Positions 10,601 through 64,000 of a DNA stretch of 64,000 bases are shown here, piece after piece. The stretch comes from Brachionus manjavacas (taxonomy: Eukaryota > Rotifera > Eurotatoria > Ploima > Brachionidae). How positions within the stretch are numbered: position 1 is the stretch's first letter; each line of letters starts with the position of its first letter. The notes beneath the pieces were generated by a model, which saw only the letters and a list, made by a program, of their open reading frames with translations, ran no database searches and was not told the DNA's origin. The position numbers and the translations under genes are program-made. The stretch is taken from NCBI GenBank assembly GCA_019054805.1, contig JAHQIY010000002.1:434001-498000 (forward strand), given 5' to 3'.

Positions 10601-13600
10601 TTTTGACCAAATTAATATTTTTTTAGATAATTTTTTCTTTTCATTTGATTTTTTGATAAGTAAAAAATTTTAAATTTTTCCTGAATTTTAAGTGAAAGGT
10701 GAAAAATTTTTGACATAAAATTAAAAAATGAAAAATTAAAAAAAAATTAGGGTATTTTATTAGTTATTTGAATATTACTTTAAGGAAATTTTAGAAAACT
10801 TTTTTCATACTTGTTTATCGAACCAAAGTTATTAATGGGGAAAAGTCAACCAGTCATTTCAAAAACCATTAAGCATTGTTTTCAGAAAAATGTACAAATA
10901 TTATTGCTGATCACTCAGCTAAATTAGGAAAATCACTAAAAAAATTCAATTAAAAAAAATAATTAAAAAAAATATAAGTAATAGAAATTATAATTGTAAG
11001 GGACTGGTGGTTGGTAAAACCACCAGTCTAACAGAGGTGTTTTTTTAATTTTTTGGTCTTTTGTAAATTTGTTCTTTTCTACAAAAAAATTCAAAATTTC
11101 AAAAATTTTGAAAAGTTAAGATTTTTTTTAAAACATTCAAATCTATATTTATTTCAATAAAATTCAATTTTATTTAATTTTCAATTCTATTATATTTTTT
11201 TACGAAAATTCAGTAAAAAATTGTAAAAACCACAAAATTAAACTTTCAATCACAGATTCAGTTCTCTTTGTCAATAATCTAGTTATTTTACCTATAATTT
11301 TTTTTCTAAACCATTTTTTGATTACAATATTCATAAATTAAAAAAAAAAATATCAAAATAAAAAAAAATATATAGTGCTTTATTTATTCAAATAAAAAAA
11401 GAATTTTTTTTAAACTGCGTGTCACAAATTTTACATTTCTTGATATTTTCGAATCTTTATCATTATAAACAATTTAAAATCCTCTAAGATAATAAATTAT
11501 TTATTTTATCATCTTTCAAAAATGAGTCAAACCTAATAAAAAAAAGGCATTTTAGAGGGTCCAACTGACCAAACATCAGACGATGCTGATCAAGCTTAGG
11601 CCCATGAACTCAAATCTCTGTTTAAAATTAGAATGCGAGGTAAAGCGATCACTTACGGTCTACACAAGTTATTTGAAGACTTAAATCAAATTTTCAAAGA
11701 AATCCGGAAAGGAAGAAATTAAAGAAAGTTTATGGTATCTACATATTCTAACTACCAATTCAGCCGTGATTAATTATATTGATAAATGATTCGAAAATAT
11801 CAAGAAATGTAAAATTTGTGACACGCAGTTTAGAAAAAATTCTTTTTTTATTTGAATAAATACAGCAATATTTTTTTTTTTGCTATTTTTTAATAAATTT
11901 ACGAATATTGTGTAATAAACCAATTCCTCAGCCATCAAGACAAACGTTGACAGTGAACATGGAGTTAATAGAAGAATAAACTTTCTTCCCATTCAACGTT
12001 TCAACGTTTTGTATTTTTATTCCCTTAAATAACCTTAAATCAAAAAATCATTTTACAGTACTGCTACGATACAGTGATTTTACTAAAAATTACGTGTTTT
12101 TACTAGATTTTACGTAAAAATCGGAAAAAATCTGTGAAATTACGTTAAAATACTAAAGTAAAATAATGTAAATTTACCAGATTTTACGTAATTTTACGTA
12201 ATTTTACCGGATTTTTCGTCAATTTTGGTAATCTTCAAAAGGGCCAAAAAAGTCCAATTTTTGGTGAATTTTTGATTTTTTTTATTTTTTTTATAAATTT
12301 TATTAAAAAAAAACAAAAAAAAAAACGTTTTTTTACGTAATTTTACGTAATTTTTTATTATAAAATGGTAATTTTAAGTAAAAAAAAGTAAATTTTAGTA
12401 AAAAATACTAGTAAAAAATAAAGTTTTTTAAATTAACGCTAATAGCTAAAGTTTTAATGGTCAGACCAATCACCATTTTTATCTATACATCATTGAATTA
12501 TGCTTGGGGTCATTGTCTTGATGTAAATTAAATTCAAAATCAAATTTTGATGCACCAAAGGGAATCAAAAAATGTGACAAAATTCCCTGTACAAAATCGA
12601 ATCCATGTTTTCATTAAAAATCTAAAATTTCACTTTTTATTATCAAAATTTTATATTTTTTTACTAAAATTTACTTTTTTTTAATTAAAATTACCATTTT
12701 ATAATAAAAAATTACGTAAAATTACGTAAAAAAACGTTTTTTTTTTTTTGTTTTTTTTTTCATAAAATTTATAAAAAAAATCAAAAAATTCAAAAATTCA
12801 CCAAAAATTGGACTTTTTTTGGCCCTTTTGAAGATTACCAAAATTGACGAAAAATCCGGTAAAATTACGTAAAATCTGGTAAATTTACATTATTTTACTT
12901 TAGTATTTTTACGTAATTTCACAGATTTTTTCCGATTTTTACGTAAAATCTAGTAAAAACACGTAATTTTTAGTAAAATCACTATATCGTAGCAGTACTG
13001 TAAATAAAAATCACTAACAATAAAATAGTAGTAGTAGTTGTTAAAAATAATCTGCAACTTGAATAATATTCAAGCAAGCTCTACTGAGCTGTAGCAGATA
13101 CTTCACGGTTTTCAAAGAGCCACTTGTCAAGTTTCGATTTGAAACAGTTCATACTTCTTGCTTCGACCACATCCACCGGCAGACTGTTCCAATCGTTCAC
13201 AACCCTATTTCCAAAAAAGTTAAATCTTGGTAAACAATTCCTAACTTGCTCTCGATGCATTGATTTTCTATGCTTTCTTAAATTGTAGCTTGATTCAAAT
13301 AACTAGATTATGGGAAAAAACCGAATCTGTGGTTGAAAATTTAATTTGTGGTTGTTTTATTAAATTAGTGGTATAATTTACTATTTTTGTGGCTACAGTT
13401 TACTATGGTCCTTTTCTAATTAAAGAAAAAAAGAAGGAAAAAAAAATCTATTAAAAAAAAAATTCAAAAAATCGTTCTTTTTTGGTAAAAATTAATTAAA
13501 ACTTTAAACTTTAAAAAATTCTACCATCTTTTCGAAAATTTCGGTAAAAATGATAAATTTAAATGGTTAAATAAACACTGTTGTTTATGTAAGACTAAAG

Positions 13601-33267: not shown

Positions 33268-33483
33268 ATTTTATACACTAAGCTAAACACTAAGTTATAC
33301 ACTAAGTTAAACACTAAGTTTTGTTTCAGTACTCCTTTTATTTCGTTAAAAGAAAGATGCCATAAATATAAAATAAGTTTGTTTAAATATACGGTGCCAA
33401 GCCAAACAAGTTGTTTGATTTTTATTAGCAAACACCACGCAAGCACGCATCTAATGCATGTTTGCTAAAACCACTACATAACA
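33268..33483 (-). repeat. 3' LTR
   Basis: 216 bp, starting TGTTATGTAG on the element strand. Nearly identical to the 5' LTR except that it has four, not five, units of a 12-bp tandem (TAWACACTAAGT on the plus strand) and lacks one C. High identity indicates fairly recent insertion. Confidence 0.9.
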
Positions 33484-33580
33484 TCCTCCCCTCTTTATTT
33501 GAATTATATAACACGAAATTAAGTCAAACGGTACAAAAGTACTTTTAAGTGAATAGATGAAGTAAATAAATTAAAAATAA

Positions 33581-35152
33581 TTATATATCTAAATTAGAGT
33601 TTTTTAAAAAAATCTGTTGAGAATTTCCATGATTGTATAGTCGCGCCTCTTTGTAGCTAATTTGCCGTTTGCATGCTCTGTTATGTTTCTCTCGCATCGG
33701 CTCACTCGTAGCCTCTTCGATTCCATCACCAGACTCGGAAGCTCTCGGTGTGCTTGAGTTAGAGCTTATAAAAGAGAAATACTCGTTTGGTTGCTGCTCA
33801 ACATCAGACTCTATTGTTGACCGATCAGAACTCTCGCCATCCCCATTCTCATGTTCAGACTGGTTTAGGTCCTCTAAACTTGGCATCTGTTCTATCTCCT
33901 TTGTTATGTGTTCCACTTTTGACTCAGATTTGACTTGAGAAGGTTCGTTAGCTTGCACACCTCCGAACAGAATTTTCTTGAAATAGCTACAGTTCCTAGT
34001 TACCTCCCTTTTCTCATTTTTCACAGTTACCATTGTTCCTTTGACACTAACCACACGATATGGCTCTGGCTCATACTTCGCCTTAAACTTGTTTAGCTTT
34101 GGTTGTTTCACCAAGACCCAATCACCAGTCTTTAACTCTTTCGCACCATCGCGCACCCCTTGGTTACAGCGTTGTTCTGCTTTGATTGCCGCCTTTAAGT
34201 CATTTTCTAGTGCTATTCTCATGTTCTCATTTGGTTTCACCTCCTCGACACATGGTAATTTTGTAAAATTTGATCTATTATACATCAAAGTTACTGGTGC
34301 CACTTTAGTCATTGAATGTGGAGCAGAGCTGTAGGCTCTAATAAATACATTCAGTTCTTTTCGCCAGTTTTTCCGAGCCATGTGAGCTCCGGTCACCACT
34401 TTTTCCATCTGTTGCATGAATCTTTCGCACTTCCCATTCGCTCTTGGCCATAGTGGAGTAATTTTTTGGTGACGAATGCCTAGGTGTTCACAATGCGCTC
34501 TAAAAGCCCTACTACTAAACGGAGGTCCGTTGTCGCTCTTAATTGCTCCCGGAATGCCCAGGACCGCATAAACCTCATCAAGTTTTGAAATAGTTGAATC
34601 CGCTGAGGTTGATCTTACAATTTTGACCACTTTGAATCTTGTGCCTTCGTCAGTGATCACTAATCCATACTCACCAGTCGGCAAAGGTCCATAAAAATCG
34701 ACGCTTATTTGATCCCAAACTTTAGTTGGCATCTTGGACATCACAATCGGAACTTTGCTTTTCTTGTCAGTTGTACAGCATTGACAAATCCTACAACTAC
34801 CAATCTTACTCTCGACCATTTTGTCCAAACCTGAAAACCAGACTTTCGATCTTAACAAACCTTTGGTTTTTATAATACCTAAGTGTCCTTCATGTGCAAT
34901 ATCAACTGCCATCGCCTGTAGTGACTTTGGTAAAACAATTCTTCGACCACGAAGCAGTAGACCATCACTTGTTGCACCTAGCTCATCTTTAATGTTGTGA
35001 AAAACTCCCAAGGCCTTTTGATCATCTCTATTAAGATACTTTTTCTCAAGACAAGACTTCACAAAGCATAAATGTGTGTCTTTCAAGGTCTCTTTTGCAA
35101 TGTACTCCCTTGTCATCAATTTCGGAACCGAATTATCAGCAACAAAATTCAC
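33581..35152 (-). pseudogene. Pol: integrase and C-terminal region of the Gypsy element
   Basis: Open for 523 codons. The zinc-binding HHCC module (AHEGHLG, then CRICQCC) comes first at about residues 85-130. The integrase core follows with the three acidic residues in VDFYGPLP, SDNGPPF and NGKCERF. The C-terminal half is charged and Ser/Glu-rich. It is in a different frame from the reverse transcriptase upstream: the segment that should join RNase H to integrase (the connecting block after TDNQAIQF) is missing about 40 codons, so a deletion made the break. Confidence 0.88.
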
Positions 35153-35952
35153 AAACTCTTCGCTAAGCCACTCGTCCGACGACTTCTTGCTTGTGACCTA
35201 CCTTTCGATCCATTATAGATGAACTGGATTGCTTGGTTGTCTGTGATTAACTTAAATGGCTTTCCGAACAAAAAAATATGAAATCTTTCACAACCAAAAA
35301 CACAAGCCAAAGCTTCCTTCTCGACTTGAGCATATTTACGTTCGAGTTCGGTTAGCGCTCGACTTGCATACGCAACGACTCTTTTGTTTTTGGCATCCGC
35401 TGGATCTATTTGTACTAACACAGCGGCCAATCCAACTGGGCTTGCATCCACAATAAGTTCAGTCTCCCAGTTCGGATTAAAATAGGCTACGGCCTCATCG
35501 GATAAAGCATTTTTCAACTTGTCTAAAGCTTGATCATGCTCTCTGTTCCAATTTAATATTTTACCATTGTTCTTCTTACCAGCCTCTCTCAGTGGCTCAG
35601 TTAGCGTACTGAAGTCACATATGAATCGAGATGAGTATGTGGCCATGCCCAGCAGACTCGCTAGTTCGGTGGTATTTCTCGGTGGCTTCAGACACTTCAA
35701 CGCTTTCACTCGCTCTGGACCGGGTGATATTCCTTTTTCGCTAAATATTAAGCCAAAAAACTCAATCGAGCGTTTGCCAAATTCGCATTTTTCTGGATTT
35801 GCAGTCAAACCACTAGAGTTTAATCTTTCTAAGACTTTTCTGAGACGCTCGTCGTGCTCTTCCTTTGTGTTTCCAAAGATTATGAAATCGTCACTCACAT
35901 TAGTCACTCCATCTAGCCCTTCAAGCACATTTCCAATTAAAAACTGGAACAT
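35149..35952 (-). pseudogene. Pol: reverse-transcriptase C-terminal half and RNase H
   Basis: Encodes the catalytic NVSDDFIIFG motif, the ANPEKCEFG and FFGLIFSEKGI blocks and the LLGMATYSSRFI connection. RNase H follows with its first aspartate in LIVDASPVGLAAVL and ending near TDNQAIQFIYN. It is one base out of frame with the preceding segment: a T run near 35985-35995 appears one base short. That is a common type of assembly error as well as of mutation. Confidence 0.88.
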
Positions 35953-37625
35953 CTCTGCGGCTGAACAATAACCAAAATTAAGCCGCGTATCTCTGAAAGA
36001 CCAATGTGCGTGCTGAAAGTTGTTAAGTGACGACTGTCTGGATGAAGCTCAATCTGACGGTATCCGCTGTTGAAATCGAGCTTAGAAAACCAAGACGCAC
36101 CATTCAACAAATGGACCAAATCATCAACAGTTGGACAAATATGACGCTCTCTTTTGATCGCCTTATTTACTTGCTTGGCATTCACCACTATTCTTATTTT
36201 ACCTGTTTGTTTTTTTGGAACCACGTGAATTGGAGAAATCCACGTTGTTGGGCCTTCTGCTCTTTCAATGATGCCTTGTTCTAATAACGACTTCAATTCG
36301 TCTTCAACCTTTTCCCTCAAGTGAAACGGTATTCTATTGTGAAATTGTTTAGTTGGCTTAACACTGTCGTCCACATGAAATTTGAGCTGATAGTTTTTCA
36401 GTTTGCCAATACCTTGACTAAAGAGATTTTCATACTGGCTTTTAAGTTTCTCACATGAGTCTAGCTGATTTACAAAACTAATCAGTCCAAGCTCAGTTGC
36501 TGTTTCAAAACTCATCAGACAGTCCGCTGAGTTTTCGACAACAACAAACTCCGCATTTTTACGTGCTTCGCGAAATTTAATTTCAGTCTTAAATTCGCCA
36601 ACCATTGGCAGTGGTACGCTTGACTTGTAAGGGTATACTTTTCTCTTACACGGGCGCAAATTTACTAAATTCTTGATCCTACTGTAGCACCTCTCGTCAA
36701 CAATGTTCACAGTTGTACCAGTATCCACTAAAAATTTAGTACTCTTGCCACATAAGTCTATACTTATAAATGGTAATTTACTAGCTGGTCCAACTGAAAA
36801 TGCATAATCAGATTCTTCAGTGCTCTCGTGATCAATCGCATTAACCTTACTGCCATTAACTTTCTTTTCCACCGACTCCTGCCGACACTTCTTTTCAAAA
36901 TGTCCAATCTTTCCACATCTGTTGCACTTTTTATTTTTAGCCGGACATTCGCCGACGTGCGGATATTCCAAGCCACAGTTGTAACATTTCCTAAGACCCA
37001 AGTTACCAAACTTAACTCTCCTTTCCCCTTTAACTTGATTCACTAATATTGAAGAGTCAAAACTTTTAGTAATGTCCTTCAATTGGTTGTTGACAACTTC
37101 ACGTGTCCGACCCCAGTCTAATAACTCGTCCAACTTCAAGTCATTATTCGACCCTAAAATTTTACTTATTATCTCTTTATTGCAAGTTCCCTCTACGATC
37201 TGACTTATTATTTCTTCATCAACATCATGAAAACCGCAGTATTTAGAGAGGTTTCGAAGTCTAGTTGCGTATGAGGCTATTGACTCACCCTCTTCCTGCT
37301 TGGTCGATCGAAAAATGTGCTTTTCGTAGTAGCGATTCTTTCTAGGATTAAAATGATCACCAAGTTTCCTTTTCATATCCTCATATGTATCAACAGTCTC
37401 GGGGTCTTCTTTTCCATCTTTATAGTTTTTTTCCACTGCTTCATAAATTCGAATGACCTCAACGCCAGCATGATGTAGTAGTGCAGCCTTTTTTCTTTCA
37501 CCATAAGTTACATTCACCCATTTTAAATAGTTTTCTAGTCCCTTGATCCATTCATTCCATTTTGCACCAACTGCAGCATCTTCCAAATCACAATCAAACA
37601 TCTGATAAAATCCATTGAGATTCAT
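35937..37625 (-). pseudogene. Gag, protease and reverse-transcriptase N-terminal half
   Basis: The likely Gag ATG is at 37625, just after the primer-binding site. The open frame continues upstream into the LTR but without meaning. Gag has a retrotransposon-type capsid region (about residues 15-190) and two CCHC zinc knuckles: CYNCGLEYPHVGEC (irregular spacing) and CNRCGKIGHFEKKC (canonical). The protease active site is FLVDTGTTVNIV. Reverse transcriptase begins with GIIERAEGPTTWISPIHVV and reaches KLDFNSGYRQIELH before the frame break. Gag and Pol share one frame here, with no stop between them. Confidence 0.88.
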
Positions 37626-37644
37626 TGTTTTTCCTCGTCGCCAG

Positions 37645-37873
37645 ATTTTATACACTAAGCTAAACACTAAGTTATACACTAAGTTATACACTAAGTTAAA
37701 CACTAAGTTTTGTTTCAGTACTCCTTTTATTTCGTTAAAAGAAAGATGCCATAAATATAAAATAAGTTTGTTTAAATATACGGTGCCAAGCCCAAACAAG
37801 TTGTTTGATTTTTATTAGCAAACACCACGCAAGCACGCATCTAATGCATGTTTGCTAAAACCACTACATAACA
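37645..37873 (-). repeat. 5' LTR
   Basis: 229 bp. Contains five 12-bp tandem units near its inner edge, one more than the 3' LTR, plus one extra C. The tandem lies at the R/U5 side on the element strand. Confidence 0.9.
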
Positions 37874-54230: not shown

Positions 54231-54883
54231 TTATTTTCTAAGAAACCTAAAATTTTTATTAAATTTTTAGTTTCTTCTTTTGATTAAAGAAAATTAGCTT
54301 TAATTATTATTAGTTTTGTCAAATTCAGTACTAAAGAACAGAACAACGTGTAAAAAGATTAAATAATTTTTTTCTTAAAAGTTTAAAATTAGTTCTGCAG
54401 CATTCTAATTTGCATGAAATGAAAAAGTCTGCTAATGGTGTGCAAAATCTCTGCAAATTTAGCAGACCTTGATATTTGATAAAGCTTTGAATGTTGCACT
54501 ATGTCGCATTTACAGAACTAAGTTTAGACCTTTAGAAAAAAAATGATTCAAGTTTTTTACATTTTTTTCTGTTCTTTTGATTTTTTTGAACTGAATTTCA
54601 AAAAACCTAAGAATTTTCAATCATTTTTTTTATCAAATCTAGAACTTTTCGGTTTAATAAAAATCTAGTTTTAAATTTTTAAAATCAGTGAAAAAATTTA
54701 AATAATCAAATAGGACAACAGAAATTTTTAATTAATTAAGTAAGAAGTAAAAAAAATTGATAGTAGTTTATGTGCATAACAATTTATTGGGTCTAAAAAT
54801 TTTTTTTAATTTTAATAAAATCAAATGCATGCTTTGACCAAAAAAATCTTCCATTAACTTATCAATGATTTTTTCCCAGTAAA

Positions 54884-57161
54884 ATGCAACAAATAGCCGG
54901 GACGCAAATTTGCTTAACACCATCAACTTCATTTCTTAATCGGGCCTTGATTAAGCAAAAACTAAGTACACTTTTACAAACTTTGAGTCAATACAGCCAA
55001 AATCTTGCTTTAAACGATGACAAATCAGTCGAATCGCTTAAGCATGATCTTACCAAGCAGCTAGAGACTCTTGAAAAAGACGCTCGAAGCCTTAACGAAG
55101 CAACCATTCAATCCATGATGAAACAACTGGCCGACCAGGTTAAAAAATTTGACTCGGACCATCACAAGTTTGTCATCGACCCGGTCCTAAAACCAGTCTT
55201 AGAGCCAAGTTTTTTCGAGAATCGTCACGGCTTCAAATACGCCGACTTAATAAACTGTCAATTCGGCACCCAAACACTTCTCAAGAGAGAAAAAAATCTC
55301 TACCACAACCAAACTAGAGGCTTTAAGACAAAAAGACGGTCCACTCAAGAAGACCAAGACGATGGCCTGTTTAGCTGGCGCGGCTTTTCAAAAAACTCCG
55401 AAGACCCGTTCAAATCTTTGAATAATCTTTTATCCCAGCCGATTTTCAAATCGGCCGAAACCAAAAAATCAACTTCCCTAGGCTCAATTTTTAATGACAA
55501 AAAATCGGATGATTTAAACAAGTTAAAATTAGGCAACAATGAATTAGATAATAAAATAAAATCAGCTTTTATTGAGGGATTTTTGTACAAACAGACCAAA
55601 GATGAAAAAACATCCCAGCGTCGCTCCAACACTCTCTCCCTAATCCGATTCATAACTTTCATCGTGATAATCTTTATTCTTTACAATTCAATAAGCATAA
55701 GCACAGTATCGAACGGAAATGGCCGTAATTCGGCCGGAAATGGCATCAACATCCGTGCACTCACGGGTAATGTCAATTTTGAAATTAACCCTGAGACCGT
55801 GTCCATTCGCTTTGAGGATGTGAAGGGTTTACCTGAGGCCAAAAAAGAGCTCACAGACATAGTTGACTTTCTAAAAGATCCGGAAAGATACACCAAACTG
55901 GGAGCTAGATTGCCCAAAGGAATTTTGTTGGTTGGACCACCGGGCTGCGGCAAAACGTTGCTGGCCAAATCGGTCGCTGGTGAAGCCGGAGTTCCTTTTT
56001 TTCAGGCAAGTGGCAGTGACTTTGATGAAATGTTTGTTGGTACAGGGTCCAAGAGAGTTAGACAATTGTTCGCTGCTGCACGCGCCAAAGCACCTTGTGT
56101 TATTTTTATTGATGAAATCGACTCGGTAGGCTCTACCAGAACTAATAGTATGATTCACCCACATGCTAACCAAACCATAAATCAGCTGCTGGCCGAAATG
56201 GACGGCTTTCAGAAGAATGAAGGAGTAATAGTGCTGGGCGCGACTAATAGACGCGACACACTGGACAATGCTTTGCTCAGACCGGGACGCTTTGATGTGG
56301 AGGTCAGGATAGACAAGCCGGACTTCAAGGCAAGGAAAGAGATTTTGGAATTTTATTTGGAAAAAGTGGCCAAAGACCGAAATGTCGATGTGGAATTTTT
56401 GGCCAGACAACTAGCTGGTTTTGGTGGATCTTCCATTGAGAACATAGTAAACCAAGCAGCGCTGAGAGCTGCGGTGACTTCAAGCCACACAGTCGCCATG
56501 GAACATCTCGAATGGGCTTTGGACAGAACATTGCTCGGCTATGGAAAATCTAGACTCGCTGATGAAGAGTGTAATAAAAACACTGCCTATCACGAGGCTG
56601 GACATGTCCTGGTCGCTTATTTCACCAAAGACTCGGACCCCTTGCACAAAGTCACCATTTTGCCAAGATGTAAAATTTTTCACTTTTTTAAGCAATTTTT
56701 TACAATGTTTCATTTAGCTCAATCGTTGGGTCATACAGCTTTTGTACCTGAAAACGATGGCTATTCGATGACACGGTCACAATTGCTGGCCAAAATGGAT
56801 GTGTCAATGGGAGGTCGTGTTGCTGAAGAGCTGGTCTTCGGCCATGATAAAGTTACCACTGGAGCCATGTCCGATTTCAAGTCTGCCACCAGTATTGCTA
56901 CCCAAATGGTCAGAATGCTTGGCATGAGTGAAAAAATTGGCCCTAGGGTTTTTGACGATGAAAAAGTCGAATCTGAGCTCTTCAACTCAGGAGTTGTTGG
57001 ATCAAGAGATAAAGAAAATACTAAATGAATCATACGACCGAGCCAAAAATATACTAAAAAATCATCCTGTTGAGTTGAAGCTTATTGCCGACGCCCTGAT
57101 GATCTACGAGACGCTAGATGTTGACCAAATTAAGAACCTTATAGAAAAACATAAATTGTAA
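54884..57161 (+). CDS. YME1L1: YME1L-type mitochondrial i-AAA protease, two exons, one frame break
   Basis: ATP-dependent zinc metalloprotease (AAA plus M41 peptidase) of the mitochondrial inner membrane facing the intermembrane space; degrades unassembled or regulatory proteins such as OPA1 forms. Exons 54884-56669 and 56718-57161. A long N-terminal region with a likely targeting sequence comes first, one membrane helix at about residues 252-272 (IRFITFIVIIFILY), then Walker A GPPGCGKT (351-358), Walker B VIFIDEID, the second region of homology GATNRRDTLDNALLRPGRFD, and zinc site HEAGH (570-574). The third ligand is the Asp in TTGAMSDF. The single transmembrane helix and domain order fit i-AAA, not m-AAA (two helices). 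At an A run, 56961-56965, the reading frame slips by one base; the conserved C-terminus (QEIKKILNESYDRAKNILK, then YETLDVDQIK) continues in the next frame to the stop at 57161. The run seems one A too long: assembly error, recent mutation or frameshifting. Confidence 0.92.
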
Positions 57162-57539
57162 AATGACGCCGTATATTGTTAGTTAAGTCATGATAATAAA
57201 AAATAAAAATATTTTATTTTTTTCTTTTTAAATAAATTAATTGAATTTTGAAATTGTATTTAAATTTTTATTTTGAATTTTTTTAAATCATTCAGATGAA
57301 TTCAACTAGCCAAAAAGGATAAGGAAAAATTAAATTTTTTTATTAAAAGCTAAATAAAGTATGTTGGTTTTATCAAAATTTAACCATCTAATGATTGTTT
57401 CTTAAAATTTATGAATTTAATTTGATTTTTATTTTTTTGATTATTCTCCCTTTAGAAATTGCTCCACCACTGATTGAAATTAATAATAAAATATTTAATA
57501 TTCAAGGATGTGTATACTTTCATGTTGTATTTTTTTGAC
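57162..57539. other. Intergenic DNA
   Basis: YME1L 3' UTR followed by AT-rich DNA; may contain more decayed MULE sequence from the minus-strand copy but none that I can read. Confidence 0.4.
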
Positions 57540-58168
57540 TACGTTTAATTGGACGTGATATAATTGACGAAAGAGAATTTTCCATCAACATACCAATTCA
57601 AATTGGACTTTATTAATTTTTAATTTTCTGTGCCAAACATAATAATTCGATTTGGATCGCCGTTTCCAGAATCAAAGATATTAAATTTTTGCTTATTACA
57701 TGTAAACGTGAACTCTTCAGGCAATATCAGATCTTGTCTTTTTTCTGGCTTTGGATAGTGCGAATAAGGTTTTTTTTTTGATAACATACGCTGTCTTAAG
57801 GCGTCATAATTTGGTAAAATTACTTGTGCTTCAATGGATAAAGTTCTTTGTGCGTTTTGAATAGTACTTTTTGCTGTACTTGTATTTGTACTTTTTAGAT
57901 CTTTTATTGCTTTACGAACTTCTATTTTTGCTGGTTGAGCAGGATGTTCATGCCAAACATTACCCTCTGTAATTGGCGGGTACAAACCAATTGTATAAAT
58001 TCGATCTTTACAGTCTGGTTGAGTGTTACATCTCCAACTATGTTTATTGGTAGTTTTCGCCACATAATCTAGTTTGTGTTCGAAATTACGATAAATTAGT
58101 AAATTTCCGACACATTGTGATCCACATAAATCTAATTTTTCAAAGCAATTAGACAATTCTTCGTCCAT
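57540..58168 (-). pseudogene. MULE transposase N-terminus with FLYWCH zinc finger (left arm copy)
   Basis: Starts at the ATG at 58168 and is open for 182 codons to 57620. Residues 20-80 form a FLYWCH-type zinc finger: NLLIYRNFEHKLDYV, then HSWRCNTQPDC and WHEHP (Cys-Cys-His-His). The segment YSHYPKPEKRQDLILPEEFT, then FNIFDSGNGDPNRIIMFGTE is the standard block that precedes the MULE catalytic domain. A stop follows, then in a shifted frame NWYVDGKFSF at about 57570, which contains the first catalytic aspartate of the Mutator DDE domain. The rest is lost. A nearly identical inverted copy runs off the right edge of the window. Confidence 0.8.
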
Positions 58169-59650
58169 TATTCAATCAACTTTTTTATTTTTAATTATTT
58201 TCGCCGAGTCAAGTCAAGTTAAGTCAAGTGAAGTCGAATTTTATGTCAAGTTTTTAGTTAAATTAATAGACGTCGAGGTTTTATGGTGTCTATTTATTTT
58301 TTAGTCAAAATTAACTCGTAAATTACATCTAGTAAAATTAATGGTCGTCGAATTTATTAGCGTCGAATAAACCTACTACCAATATTTAATTAGTAATTTT
58401 TATTTTTAATTCAAAAAGAGTCCACCTTCCATTTTTTATTAATACTTAGAAAATGGTATTGTTGCGGCTCAACAATCCGCCGACAAAATAACTAGGGATC
58501 GTTAATCAAAACTTGTACCACTAATCCAAGAATCCAATCACTCCACATCAATTAAGACCAGCTTGGGGCTAAAAAACAATGCAATCCATAAATGGATGCT
58601 AGCACATCCAAGAAAAATTCCTCCTTTCCTCCTTGCCAATATCCCTAGGAACCCAAACTCCATGAATCTTCGACTTGGAAATAGCAGAATGAGACATAGC
58701 AATAAAGGTTTTTGTTGTTGGAAAATTGTTTACTTTGAATCTAAAATAAACAACTGAGACCAGCAAAGATTTAAATTCTTAAAAAATAAATAATGATATA
58801 AATTTTTTTATTTAAGTTATTATCAGAGAAAATGCTATTTTTAAAGCTTCTTCAAATTAAAAAAAAAAAAACAATTCTATTTCACTAAAAAGTTTAATTT
58901 CAAATAGAAAAAATCTTAGAGTATTAACTTATAATTATTTTTTATTTGAAACTGAAAAAAAAATTTTAAACATCGCACTTTTTGAATTTAAACTTTGGAT
59001 ACATTTTTTAATTCAAACACAAAATATTAAACTTTATTTATTCATAATTAAGAAAAATTTTTTATTCATCAATATCTTTAGGACAAAATTTTCTTTACTT
59101 AAATAGTGCATATTAGCGATTTTAATCAATGTAGAGGGAAAGATTTATCAAACAGAAATTAATGATTAGATGCAAATGAAAAGTTGAGGAGTTGAATAAT
59201 AATTTGGATAAGAGCTTAAATGATCCAATTTTGTTTCATGTTCCCGTAAGACCTATCCTTGTTTAGTGTTCAACTGCTCTTAAATTTAACTTAAAAATTA
59301 GATCTAAGGAGGCTAATCCAACAGAAATGTTTAAGTCCCATTTATTTTTTTTTTATCTTTTAAGAGAATCCAATAAACCTTTTAGCATCGTATTTTTTGT
59401 TATTATTATATCGGATATCTAGTGCTTCGAAAAGACTTACCGAAATGTGTTTGAACGCCATCGAAGCTGACTTAGATAGCTTTTTACAGGATTTGTACTA
59501 ATTAAAAATTAATTAATCTCTTCAGCAAACTTACTAAAAATACAACTTATTAAAATCATGGGCAAATTATTTAAACAAATTTAAAAGTTATTTTGATTTT
59601 TATAAGAAAAAATTCTTTCATTTTAAGTACAAGTTAAAAAAAATATATTT
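57640..59650. repeat. Left arm of a giant inverted repeat
   Basis: This arm is nearly identical to the reverse complement of about 62030-64000. Mirror coordinates sum to about 121,640 near the outer end and 121,645 near 59,500, so only a few indel bases separate the arms over 1.9 kb. The arm carries the MULE transposase N-terminus, a short AAGTC-type tandem at 58203-58232, the CXC-like fragment and AT-rich DNA. Beyond 59650 a further 110 bp pairs, much more diverged, with 61540-61690. Confidence 0.92.
58520..58757 (+). pseudogene. CXC/CRC-domain-like fragment (left arm copy)
   Basis: A 64-codon frame without an ATG start (58563-58757, ending at a TGA) contains RNPNSMNLRLG, then RMRHSNKGFCCWK. 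This resembles the linker and second-repeat start of tesmin/TSO1/LIN54-type CXC (CRC) DNA-binding domains, where RNPxAFxPK(I/L)G is followed by RRHSKGCNCKKSGC. The cysteine positions that should continue are lost after CCWK. It may be a captured host fragment or a transposon-encoded CXC module. The match is a recognised pattern, not a database result. Confidence 0.4.
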
Positions 59651-59761
59651 AGTATCATTATAATTTTAAAACAATGAAGATAAATTCAAGATTTACAATT
59701 TTGTGTTTTTTATCGAATTTTTATATTTGATTAAAAATCTTTGTTAATTAAAATATTATTA

Positions 59762-59872
59762 TCTTTTATGTTCTGTTTTTGGACACATTTTCAACGCCTA
59801 GCGAATTCATGCCAAGCAAAACATCTGATCCATCTCTTCGTGTTTATTCAGGTGAAAAAATCCTTTTTCAGC
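59762..59872 (+). repeat. 110-bp direct repeat, copy 1
   Basis: The unit TGTTCTGTTTTTGGACACAT through GTTTATTCAGGTGAAAAAAT overlaps the start of the broken CR-like gene. It recurs at 61020-61112 and 61325-61430 in the same orientation. Confidence 0.8.
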
Positions 59873-60653
59873 CTATTTATTTGCTCCCTAATTGGGACGT
59901 ATTTGCAAAATCAGCCCAAAATATTAGCGAAACAATACTTTTTGATTATAACAGCAATTTTGGTCGCGTACTCTGGGGATCTTGGATCTATACTAGAAAC
60001 AGTTCACATGAAAAATTTAAGACTATTGGTTATTCAGAACTTTATACCGCAACAGCAGGCAAATTAATCGTTGGTGAAAATTTAGATAAAATTTAAAGTG
60101 TTACCGATTGCTTATCTATTTTGAGTTCAAGAATTGGAAAAATTAAACCAAAATTGATTACTAAATGTCAAGAGTAAGAGACCAAAATTTGGCTGTGTGC
60201 ACATTTGTTGATTCAAATACAAGTCGTCTTGAAATCGATTACCCATCAGAGCCGATTTTAGCTGAAGCTTCAGCTTATTTAAGGCATAAATCAAACAATT
60301 TAAATCTTTTTTTAAAAAAATTAAGATTAACAATTGAATCTTCACTCATTTCCCGAAGAGAAAATGGAGAAATTATCGGCAAAATAATTATAATTATTGC
60401 CAAAGATAAAGCTCCCAATTCATGTCAGTTATACCATCCAATAATGTATCATAACTTAAGTAAAGTTCGTGAATTTGTTCAAGGTTTATATGCAAAGTGT
60501 AATGAAAGTCATGGAAATACCGAAAATGAATTGGAATGTAAATCTGAGACAATTAAAATAATAAATCTGCGAATAGTAAATTATACAGAATTACTAAATA
60601 GGTGGTTGTTTAAGAATGAATCATCTTTAGGGACAGCGATTCAATCCATTTAG
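59779..60653 (+). pseudogene. Broken gene resembling Crinkler/RHS-type (CR) NTPase C-terminal region
   Basis: Two open segments, 59779-60096 (105 codons) and 60165-60653 (162 codons), seem to be parts of one former protein; an in-frame stop at 60094-60096 and a frame change near 60165 separate them. The first has FGRVLWGSWIYTR and IGYSELYTATAGKL. The second has LAVCTFVDSN, then YPSEPILAEASAYLRH, then GEIIGKIIIIIAKD. The order (WGS block, helix with KL, YPSEPxLAEAsA, GExxxxxLLxxA) resembles the helical region after the P-loop NTPase in CR-type (Crinkler/RHS-like) proteins of fungi and some animals, many of them transposon-linked. This rests on remembered pattern only. No P-loop is visible in the window. 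If wrong, these are two unassigned ORFs. Confidence 0.4.
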
Positions 60654-60745
60654 TAGAGCAATTTCTTTTAACCAAGATTTTGGTCTTAAAAAATGGTTAA
60701 AATTCATCCAGCCATTCAGTAATTCTGTATAATTTTCACATTTTT

Positions 60746-60878
60746 TATCCAGAACTAAATTTTTGACAAAATCATTTTTTCTTGATTAAATTTGTATCAA
60801 AATAGACTTGAACCTAAGGATTTTTTTGACAAATTTAATCAAGAAAAAATGATTTTGTCAAAAATTTAGTTCTGGATA
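60746..60878. repeat. Perfect 50-bp inverted repeat (hairpin)
   Basis: Bases 60746-60795 are the exact reverse complement of 60829-60878, with a 33-nt loop. It begins about 90 bases after the broken CR-like gene, in the centre of the giant palindrome. Confidence 0.85.
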
Positions 60879-61002
60879 TAAAATGCGATGAAAAAGATAA
60901 TGTCTTTGTTTTTGACAAAGAATCTTCATTATTAGAATGATCAACAGAGATACAATTTTTTATCTTTAATTTAGGTATTTTGAGAAGTTTAATAATTTAA
61001 TT

Positions 61003-61430
61003 AAAGAAAAATATTTTTGTTCTGTTTTTGGACACATTTTCAACGATTACTGAATTCATGCCAAGCAAAACATCTGATCCATCTCTTCGTGTTTATTCAG
61101 GTGAAAAAATAGTTTTTAACTAACCCTCACCCTAACCCTAATCCTTATTACATAAATAAAAAAAAAGGAATTAAATAAAAATAATTACTTTTATAAAAAA
61201 AGTAGCCAAATAATTTGCAAAAGGAAGAAACTATTTGCTGTTTGTTTTATTTTTTAGATACGTAATAGAATATAAATTTCTTTAATACTAGAATAAATGA
61301 AAAAACCTTAATTAAAGAAAAATATTTTTGTTCTGTTTTTGGACACATTTTCAACGCTTAGCGAATTCATGCCAAGCAAAACATCTGATCCATCTCTTCG
61401 TGTTTATTCAGGTGAAAAAATCCTTTTTCA
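61003..61430 (+). repeat. 110-bp direct repeat, copies 2 and 3
   Basis: Copies at about 61003-61112 and 61309-61430, each preceded by TTAATTAAAGAAAAATATTT. Copy 3 continues into CCTTTTTCAGCCTATTTA as in copy 1, copy 2 does not. Between them is a telomere-like CCCTAA tract at about 61120-61143. Confidence 0.8.
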
Positions 61431-61690
61431 GCCTATTTACTTTTATTTGTCGCTCTAAAGTCCCTGAAGATTTTTTTTTAAAGAACTGATTGACTAGAGG
61501 AATTCTGATTGAGTAATAAAAAGTCTTGGAAAATGCGAATTTTGATTTTTATTAGATAATAATCTTTTGATTAACATAAGATTTTTAAACAAATATAAAA
61601 ATTGGATAAAAAACAAAAAATTGTTATAAAAATATTTTCACAAATATAAAATCTTGAATTTTTCTTCATTGTTTTAAAATTATTCCAATG

Positions 61691-62025
61691 TTTCTTTCAT
61701 TTTTAATCATTTTTTCATTTTTCTCAATGTAAGCAGTTCGTTGAAACTTTAACTTAGTTCTGTATCTGAAAAATTATTAAAAAAAGCTTTTTTTATTTTT
61801 AAATTCCTAAATTAAAAATTTACTAATTATGTCAAGAAATTTTTCTTTTTTATCATTAATACTACATCTAAGAGTACAATTCAAACTAAACTTATTAGAA
61901 TTAACAAAGTAACAAGATTTTAGTTTGAGATTTGAGTGAATCCATTTTAATCTTAAATTTTTTTTCCAGTTTTTAGAATAAATTTTCAAGAACTAAAAAT
62001 TTTTTTTTTTACTTGTACTTAAAAT
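61691..62025. other. AT-rich insertion in the right arm
   Basis: This segment has no counterpart in the left arm at the mirrored position (about 59650). No terminal repeats or coding sequence are visible. Confidence 0.5.
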
Positions 62026-62881
62026 GAAAGAATTTTTTCTTATAAAAATCAAAATAACTTTTAAATTTGTTTAAATAATTTGCCCATGATTTTAATAAGT
62101 TGTATTTTTAGTAAGTTTGCTGAAGAGATTAATTAATTTTTAATTAGTACAAATCCTGTAAAAAGCTATCTAAGTCAGCTTCGATGGCGTTCAAACACAT
62201 TTCGGTAAGTCTTTTCGAAGCACTAGATATCCGATATAATAATAACAAAAAATACGATGCTAAAAGGTTTATTGGATTCTCTTAAAAGATAAAAAAAATA
62301 AATGGGACTTAAACATTTCTGTTGGATTAGCCTCCTTAGATCTAATTTTTAAGTTAAATTTAAGAGCAGTTGAACACTAAACAAGGATAGGTCTTACGGG
62401 AACATGAAACAAAATTGGATCATTTAAGCTCTTATCCAAATTATTATTCAACTCCTCAACTTTTCATTTGCATCTAATCATTAATTTCTGTTTGATAAAT
62501 CTTTCCCTCTACATTGATTAAAATCGCTAATATGCACTATTTAAGTAAAGAAAATTTTGTCCTAAAGATATTGATGAATAAAAAATTTTTCTTAATTATG
62601 AATAAATAAAGTTTAATATTTTGTGTTTGAATTAAAAAATGTATCCAAAGTTTAAATTCAAAAAGTGCGATGTTTAAAATTTTTTTCAGTTTCAAATAAA
62701 AAATAATTATAAGTTAATACTCTAAGATTTTTTCTATTTGAAATTAAACTTTTTAGTGAAATAGAATTGTTTTTTTTTTTAATTTGAAGAAGCTTTAAAA
62801 ATAGCATTTTCTCTGATAATAACTTAAATAAAAAAATTTATATCATTATTTATTTTTTAAGAATTTAAATCTTTGCTGGTC

Positions 62882-63119
62882 TCAGTTGTTTATTTTAGAT
62901 TCAAAGTAAACAATTTTCCAACAACAAAAACCTTTATTGCTATGTCTCATTCTGCTATTTCCAAGTCGAAGATTCATGGAGTTTGGGTTCCTAGGGATAT
63001 TGGCAAGGAGGAAAGGAGGAATTTTTCTTGGATGTGCTAGCATCCATTTATGGATTGCATTGTTTTTTAGCCCCAAGCTGGTCTTAATTGATGTGGAGTG
63101 ATTGGATTCTTGGATTAGT
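62882..63119 (-). pseudogene. CXC/CRC-domain-like fragment (right arm copy)
   Basis: Identical at protein level to the fragment at 58563-58757, in mirror orientation. Same RNPNSMNLRLG and RMRHSNKGFCCWK segments and same stop. Its preservation reflects the recent duplication or conversion of the arms and is not evidence of function. Confidence 0.4.
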
Positions 63120-63471
63120 GGTACAAGTTTTGATTAACGATCCCTAGTTATTTTGTCGGCGGATTGTTGAGCCGCAACAATACCATTTTCTAAGTATTAA
63201 TAAAAAATGGAAGGTGGACTCTTTTTGAATTAAAAATAAAAATTACTAATTAAATATTGGTAGTAGGTTTATTCGACGCTAATAAATTCGACGACCATTA
63301 ATTTTACTAGATGTAATTTACGAGTTAATTTTGACTAAAAAAATAAATAGACACCATAAAACCTCGACGTCTATTAATTTAACTAAAAACTTGACATAAA
63401 ATTCGACTTCACTTGACTTAACTTGACTTGACTCGGCGAAAATAATTAAAAATAAAAAAGTTGATTGAATA

Positions 63472-64000
63472 ATGGACGAAGAATTGTCTAATTGCTTTGA
63501 AAAATTAGATTTATGTGGATCACAATGTGTCGGAAATTTACTAATTTATCGTAATTTCGAACACAAACTAGATTATGTGGCGAAAACTACCAATAAACAT
63601 AGTTGGAGATGTAACACTCAACCAGACTGTAAAGATCGAATTTATACAATTGGTTTGTACCCGCCAATTACAGAGGGTAATGTTTGGCATGAACATCCTG
63701 CTCAACCAGCAAAAATAGAAGTTCGTAAAGCAATAAAAGATCTAAAAAGTACAAATACAAGTACAGCAAAAAGTACTATTCAAAACGCACAAAGAACTTT
63801 ATCCATTGAAGCACAAGTAATTTTACCAAATTATGACGCCTTAAGACAGCGTATGTTATCAAAAAAAAAACCTTATTCGCACTATCCAAAGCCAGAAAAA
63901 AGACAAGATCTGATATTGCCTGAAGAGTTCACGTTTACATGTAATAAGCAAAAATTTAATATCTTTGATTCTGGAAACGGCGATCCAAATCGAATTATTA
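63472..64000 (+). CDS. MULE transposase N-terminus with FLYWCH finger (right arm copy, partial at window edge)
   Basis: Open from the ATG at 63472 to the window edge (176 codons visible), identical in protein sequence to the left-arm copy: FLYWCH finger, then the ILPEEFTFT and FDSGNGDPNRII blocks. It reads outward, away from the palindrome centre. Whether it continues into an intact catalytic domain or breaks at the same point as the left copy cannot be seen here. Confidence 0.75.
   Translation, partial: MDEELSNCFEKLDLCGSQCVGNLLIYRNFEHKLDYVAKTTNKHSWRCNTQPDCKDRIYTIGLYPPITEGNVWHEHPAQPAKIEVRKAIKDLKSTNTSTAKSTIQNAQRTLSIEAQVILPNYDALRQRMLSKKKPYSHYPKPEKRQDLILPEEFTFTCNKQKFNIFDSGNGDPNRII

Follow-up and report, generated by a model that had tools for sequence, protein, structure and literature searches.

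A near-identical inverted repeat with part of a host protease gene in each arm in Brachionus manjavacas, and its possible origin as a recent segmental duplication

Human inverted copy number variants (CNVs) of the factor 8 type, which fall in the DUP-TRP/INV-DUP class, are described as having two unlike junctions, one within inverted repeats that already existed and one where homology is slight or absent (PMC10766186). Palindromic amplification, as described in another report, is seeded by short inverted repeats of 42-229 bp next to a break (PMC7999016). Palindromes were also reported for Adineta vaga and Folsomia candida, where conversion between the arms was proposed (PMC7953838), and target duplications of 8-10 bp are given as typical of Mutator/foldback elements and of FLYWCH-type Mutator-like elements (FLYWCH-MULEs) such as Phantom (PMC3169594, PMC5225508). 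Here, we analysed 64,000 nucleotides of the rotifer Brachionus manjavacas (positions 434001-498000 of contig JAHQIY010000002.1, in the following C2, from a 114-Mb genome of 61 contigs), to which we refer as the window. At its right end lies an inverted repeat whose two arms of 3.44 kb each run in opposite orientation around a centre of ~2.4 kb. Both arms carry the 3′ part of a host protease gene, and their identity ends within a more diverged inverted pair, block U, which corresponds to the upstream region of a gene with a relative on contig C1. We do not regard this locus as a transposon, and estimate a probability of about 50% that it arose when host DNA underwent a recent inverted segmental duplication, seeded at the older inverted U pair.

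The locus shares its two-junction outcome with the inverted CNVs of the factor 8 type, for which origin-dependent inverted-repeat amplification (ODIRA) is a rival route. It differs from them in its kilobase scale and its already scrambled centre, and no triplication was seen. As in seeded palindromic amplification, a short inverted pair lies at the centre of a long palindrome, but the spacer of the inner pair exceeds 1.7 kb here. Inverted arms on one chromosome are also found in the gene-converting palindromes of the primate Y, Adineta vaga and Folsomia candida; here, in contrast, each arm holds part of one gene, a diverged outer margin is missing, and conversion is only a rival reading. Primate Y palindromes are, furthermore, far longer than the arms described here. 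The locus has a FLYWCH-MULE fragment in common with Tm1/foldback elements and Phantom, but the arms do not represent inverted repeats of this MULE, which is a passenger, and neither the outer ends nor the copy number fit such an element. The locus is, in sum, a further instance of an already known type of rearrangement.

Extent and identity of the arms

Comparing the window with itself by BLAST, we found 57640-59666 to match 64000-61980 in inverted orientation with 99.3% identity over 2028 columns (E = 0). Extending the comparison by the following 12 kb of the contig, to 76000 (extended coordinates, that is, those >64000, are contig positions minus 434000), lengthened the match to 56199-59666 against 65446-61980, with 99.4% identity over 3475 columns (E = 0). 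With E = 0 in both self-comparisons, a chance origin of the inverted repeat is far excluded. A preliminary description of the window, made from its sequence, had reported near-identical inverted arms of ~2 kb starting at 57640. The near-identity is confirmed, whereas the length is not: the right arm extends beyond 64000 and continues to 65447, and the start at 57640 proved to be merely the mirror image of the window edge.

Strict global alignment of the left arm (56198..59634, + strand) with the right arm (62011..64000 in the window and on to 65447 in extended coordinates, C2:496011-499447, - strand, with the protease 3′ part reversed) gave 3430 aligned pairs over 3437 bp each, with 1 mismatch and 9 indels. 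The sole mismatch is the outermost base, and the number of internal substitutions is 0; by the rule of three, the true substitution divergence between the arms is probably below ~0.09%. Eight of the nine indels are pure A/T homopolymer-length differences, and the ninth comprises 3 bases (two T and a C) beside a T run. Homopolymer lengths are frequent consensus errors but also undergo fast true changes, and these differences therefore cannot date the event. From the outer to the inner end, each arm consists of the protease gene 3′ part, a dead MULE fragment, a piece of a high-copy repeat and the edge of block U, within which arm identity ends (59634/62011), 82 bp from the outer edge of U at 59552.

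The same indels would also be in line with an artefact of assembly or whole-genome amplification, in which the right arm would be spurious, an inverted copy of the left arm, as they fit a single sequence plus consensus noise. Amplification of small samples is reported to make artificial palindromes, with inverted duplications seen in assemblies of such reads (PMC6218980), misassembly is stated to be able to yield false palindromes (PMC7953838), and in natural genomes long palindromes are said to be rare as well as unstable (PMC10766186). Nevertheless, we consider this explanation unlikely. The right arm continues into a different flank, which contains a hAT element, and a palindromic read would not be expected to have an asymmetric centre of 2.4 kb together with an older pair in register. 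The preliminary description had likewise argued, from the centre and the inner pair, against a simple read palindrome; both the asymmetry and the older pair do speak for this view, but we keep the artefact as a rival. In addition, we searched the genome with four queries (54800-57200, 57640-58640, 58380-59670 and 59600-62000, thus leaving out 57201-57639), scoring the best candidates, and found no other contig holding a different version of the locus.

A host protease gene and a MULE fragment in the arms

The outer 964 bp of the left arm are the 3′ part of a host gene for an FtsH/YME1-type AAA-M41 metalloprotease with AAA and M41 peptidase domains (54884..57161, + strand; 964 of its 2278 bp, from 56198 to the gene end, lie within the arm). 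The outer end of the arm thus falls in a coding exon. The NCBIfam FtsH model was the best match to the protease, at a score below its curated cut-off (528.6 versus 600 bits). Among the chains of the Protein Data Bank (PDB), YME1 matched with 3.6e-110 and AFG3L2 with 3.1e-97, and bacterial FtsH chains scored level with YME1. An AFG3L/paraplegin label, which we had considered for the gene, was dropped because YME1 and bacterial FtsH chains outscore AFG3L2.

Searching the genome with 54800-57200 returned three matches: the gene itself, the right arm and a 260-bp stretch at another place that matches with 68%. As the right-arm match covers only positions 1400-2401 of the query, the protease 5′ part is found only at the left locus, and no second copy of it was detected in the genome by this search. 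The left copy, the only complete one found, has its C-terminal frame shifted by a one-base homopolymer-length difference (56961, 64685 in extended coordinates), which may reflect a consensus error in the arms or else a genuine lesion. The truncated right copy, in contrast, keeps its frame open to the expected end, so that, as far as this single coding test goes, the consensus of the right arm is no worse than that of the left, a point against the right arm being a false copy. Four other open reading frames (ORFs) of the window with conserved host-gene domains are unbroken over 353 to 701 codons; having been chosen for their length, they are a weak control for the frame shift.

Next to the protease part, each arm contains a ~0.9-kb fragment in which the FLYWCH head of a FLYWCH-MULE transposase is joined to the distal end of the element (57506..58380, - strand; the mirror copy, computed from the arm alignment, at ~63259-64134, + strand). 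The sequences flanking the left copy, 57497-57505 and 58381-58389, match in 8/9 bases, a level reached by 168 of 200000 random 9-mer pairs drawn from the region. A relative on contig C10 has a perfect 9/9 duplication, with its 58380-side end one base further in, and in the relative L012 on C11 no 9-bp duplication was seen by eye. The matches to six relatives (on C5, C6, C10 and C28 and twice on C11) end at ~58377-58399, and the C10 relative and one of those on C11 also have the other end of the fragment, near 57500. The 182-aa head ORF matched FLYWCH with 18.4 bits, below the curated cut-off of 23.6. Its 89 matches, itself and the mirror copy included, comprise heads directly beside PF10551 domains, as exemplified by C4:2369838-2370320, which adjoins PF10551 at C4:2369526-2369804. 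Based on its ends, its flank repeats and its likeness to heads beside PF10551, we regard the fragment as an internally deleted FLYWCH-MULE, which appears to have been a neighbour of the protease gene already when the duplication arose. The head ORF of the arms showed no catalytic MULE domain, and between the two ends of the fragment the self-comparisons gave no inverted match that would correspond to long terminal inverted repeats, which such elements typically but not always have. Since PF10551 matches exist elsewhere in the genome (150 in the best 150 of 394 candidates), help with transposition in trans is conceivable.

The preliminary description had suggested that the whole structure, with its outward-facing transposase heads, could be a composite MULE able to mobilise its central cargo. 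FLYWCH-type fragments do face outward (- on the left, + on the right), and Mutator/foldback elements are known in animals, as described for Tm1 (PMC3169594). However, the fragments are internally deleted and lie inside the arms, not at their ends, and each has its own termini (57506 and 58380 for the left copy) and its own near-perfect 9-bp target duplication within the arm. The outermost part of each arm is host gene, and the outer ends are not MULE ends: when we compared the flanks at 56198 and 65447 by eye, no shared 8-11-mer was present, and the 8-11-bp target duplication to be looked for at these ends was therefore not seen. Nor did the four genome searches find a second locus with the whole unit; other genomic copies, which were likewise to be looked for, were limited to pieces. 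Host gene sequence in the arms, the wrong ends and the lack of a second copy in these searches all speak against a transposon, and we find a composite or foldback MULE with central cargo barely credible.

The high-copy interspersed repeat fragment, which both arms contain further inwards, measures ~200 bp (58850..59050, limits approximate). At least 64 matches to it were listed, both arms included, with the best 40 of 1419 candidates scored.

The junctions and the centre

At the inner junction, the two copies of block U differ in length. The right copy (61554..62093, - strand) is the long version, whose colinearity with the C1 locus also covers the stretch that the left copy lacks; the left copy (59552..59764, + strand) is ~330 bp shorter. 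When aligned locally with C1, right U scored 139, whereas 200 letter shuffles reached 57 at most. The inner inverted pair (59660-59764 versus 61554-61683) differs at 6 of 105 aligned bases and has a further 25 gap columns, as opposed to no mismatch inside the arms (Fisher p ~6e-10 for the mismatches), in agreement with the earlier observation that this pair is more diverged. Because arm identity ends inside U and right U is colinear with C1, the older inverted U pair, which is in register with the arms, likely came first. We also considered whether the arms are terminal repeats of the C1-like gene family and rejected this, as homology to C1 is limited to U and the gene pieces, with none outside 59552/62093.

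The centre (59765..61442, both strands) is indeed asymmetric, as had been described, and is made up of five out-of-order pieces of the C1-like gene, three on the + strand and two on the - strand. Their relative is a 688-aa ORF, counted from a TTG codon (C1:3251358-3253424, equivalent to L040:2359-4425), in which we noted Walker-like motifs by eye. It had no matches in Pfam (E up to 1), NCBIfam (0.001) or the PDB sequences (E up to 1); it may resemble Crinkler-type NTPase-nuclease proteins. Within the centre, three partial direct copies (59761-59882, 60997-61117 and 61308-61443) are 92.6 to 96.7% identical in pairwise comparison, and the two sides of a hairpin (60736-60885) are 86.8% identical. 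Since these copies and the hairpin have diverged, the rearrangements of the centre are likely older than the identity of the arms. A telomere-like repeat of ~four degenerate TTAGGG-type units, read by eye (61120..61144, - strand), may mark an old break that was repaired with telomeric sequence. Perfect five-unit matches of TTAGGG occur 22 times in the genome, on 9 contigs.

The preliminary description had left two origins side by side, gene conversion between the arms and a recent inverted duplication around an older foldback; these are the two best surviving explanations, of which we favour the second. According to the first, an old palindrome was centred on the C1-like gene, and arm-to-arm gene conversion kept its outer arms identical while the centre and the innermost 105 bp diverged behind the 330-bp heterology. 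Conversion tracts often stop at heterology, and arm identity stops where the heterology starts. Furthermore, the inner pair is in register with the arms at ~6% divergence, the gene pieces on both strands would fit a decayed palindrome centre, and palindromes are held to allow conversion from arm to arm (PMC7953838). On the other hand, the outer end lacks a diverged margin, so that the latest tract must have spanned all 3.4 kb, and we found no diverged protease remnant beyond the outer end, either up to 76000 or in the genome search. Conversion of an old palindrome would thus explain most of the observations, though not the missing outer margin, and we regard it as rather unlikely. It is still more doubtful that such a palindrome is actively self-converting, with the truncated right copy as the template for repairs by which the single-copy YME1-type protease would stay free of mutations in its 3′ part, and with the 330-bp heterology as the inner bound.

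At the outer junction, position 65446 is followed by 2-3 bases and then by the 8-bp flank repeat of the hAT element (65457-68406 in extended coordinates), which is unrelated to the MULE. Its flank repeats match in 7/8 bases, a level reached by 394 of 200000 random 8-mer pairs, and reading the ends of its relative L041 revealed a perfect 8-bp flank pair. The hAT dimerisation domain PF05699, detected with 6.4e-18 in the relative L042, is split between frames in the local element into two pieces, one above and one below the cut-off. Past the hAT element, self-comparison up to 76000 found no continuation of the right arm or of the protease.

The proximity of the arm end to the flank repeat of the hAT element could point to this element as the cause of the duplication, for example by aberrant or alternative transposition followed by repair copying. 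However, the element has decayed: the pieces of its transposase lie in different frames, and those of its main body share ~84-89% identity with the four relatives examined. With target duplications that match in 7/8 bases, it has the appearance of an older insertion whose two flanks were preserved, whereas the arm event seems to be recent. At the inner junction we saw no hAT end either, and we judge a causal role of the element very improbable.

A possible route to the duplication

The anatomy described above is directly observed in the assembly; the steps that could have produced it are what we infer. A recent inverted duplication may have begun with a break or stalled fork at or beyond right U, whose 3′ end would have paired, in inverted orientation, with left U. 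From there, break-induced replication or template switching could have copied outward through the MULE fragment into the protease gene, over 3.4 kb, before the new end was joined, with no evident homology, to DNA 2-3 bp outside the old hAT target duplication. Given the spacer of the inner pair, invasion of the sister or the same chromatid would be apter than intrastrand fold-back. Short inverted repeats beside a break are reported to seed long palindromes in yeast and in hamster cells (PMC7999016). We favour a homology-primed event since one would hardly expect a simple inverted insertion to stop in U, in register with the older pair. Primed copying outward would explain why the gene is truncated, why identity reaches up to the outermost base and where the inner edge lies. 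In further support of a duplication of host DNA, the arms end in ordinary host sequence, without element termini at their ends.

Several points weigh against such a duplication. The structure is known from one assembly, and a single recent conversion across the whole arm would also leave identical arms. Left U by itself matched C1 weakly, with a score of 64 compared to a shuffle maximum of 50, and the shuffles were of letters, which does not keep the dinucleotides. The exact entry point is uncertain, since the 330-bp deletion in left U may post-date the event.

If real, the duplication is apparently very young, and both its junctions can be read, with a short inverted pair of greater age lying in register with an identical pair of much greater length. 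The locus could serve to test break-induced replication versus gene conversion by way of isolates or sister species. It also illustrates how reading the raw sequence can turn a segmental duplication of host DNA with transposon debris into a 'giant transposon'.

Other repeats are present in the vicinity. To the right of the palindrome, we noted two inverted pairs, at 73949-75346 (173 columns, 97.7%) and 72315-73477 (158 columns, 94.9%), both in extended coordinates. Two further inverted pairs, shorter than the arms, lie at 11-13 kb of the window (12052-12416 / 12649-13004, 93.8%, and 11324-11468 / 11774-11911, 88.4%), between two + strand ORFs with ubiquitin-hydrolase domains, and are perhaps foldback-type elements. 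Among the ORFs of the window are pieces with USP47-type, beta-CASP, V/A-type ATPase and Est1 domains; the USP47-type gene points to an animal, and the size of the genome, its base composition and its short introns would fit a rotifer. Finally, a unit resembling a long terminal repeat (LTR) retrotransposon (33272-37873, - strand) has direct repeats of ~212 bp that are 98.1% identical, and encodes gag, reverse transcriptase, RNase H and integrase over three overlapping ORFs.

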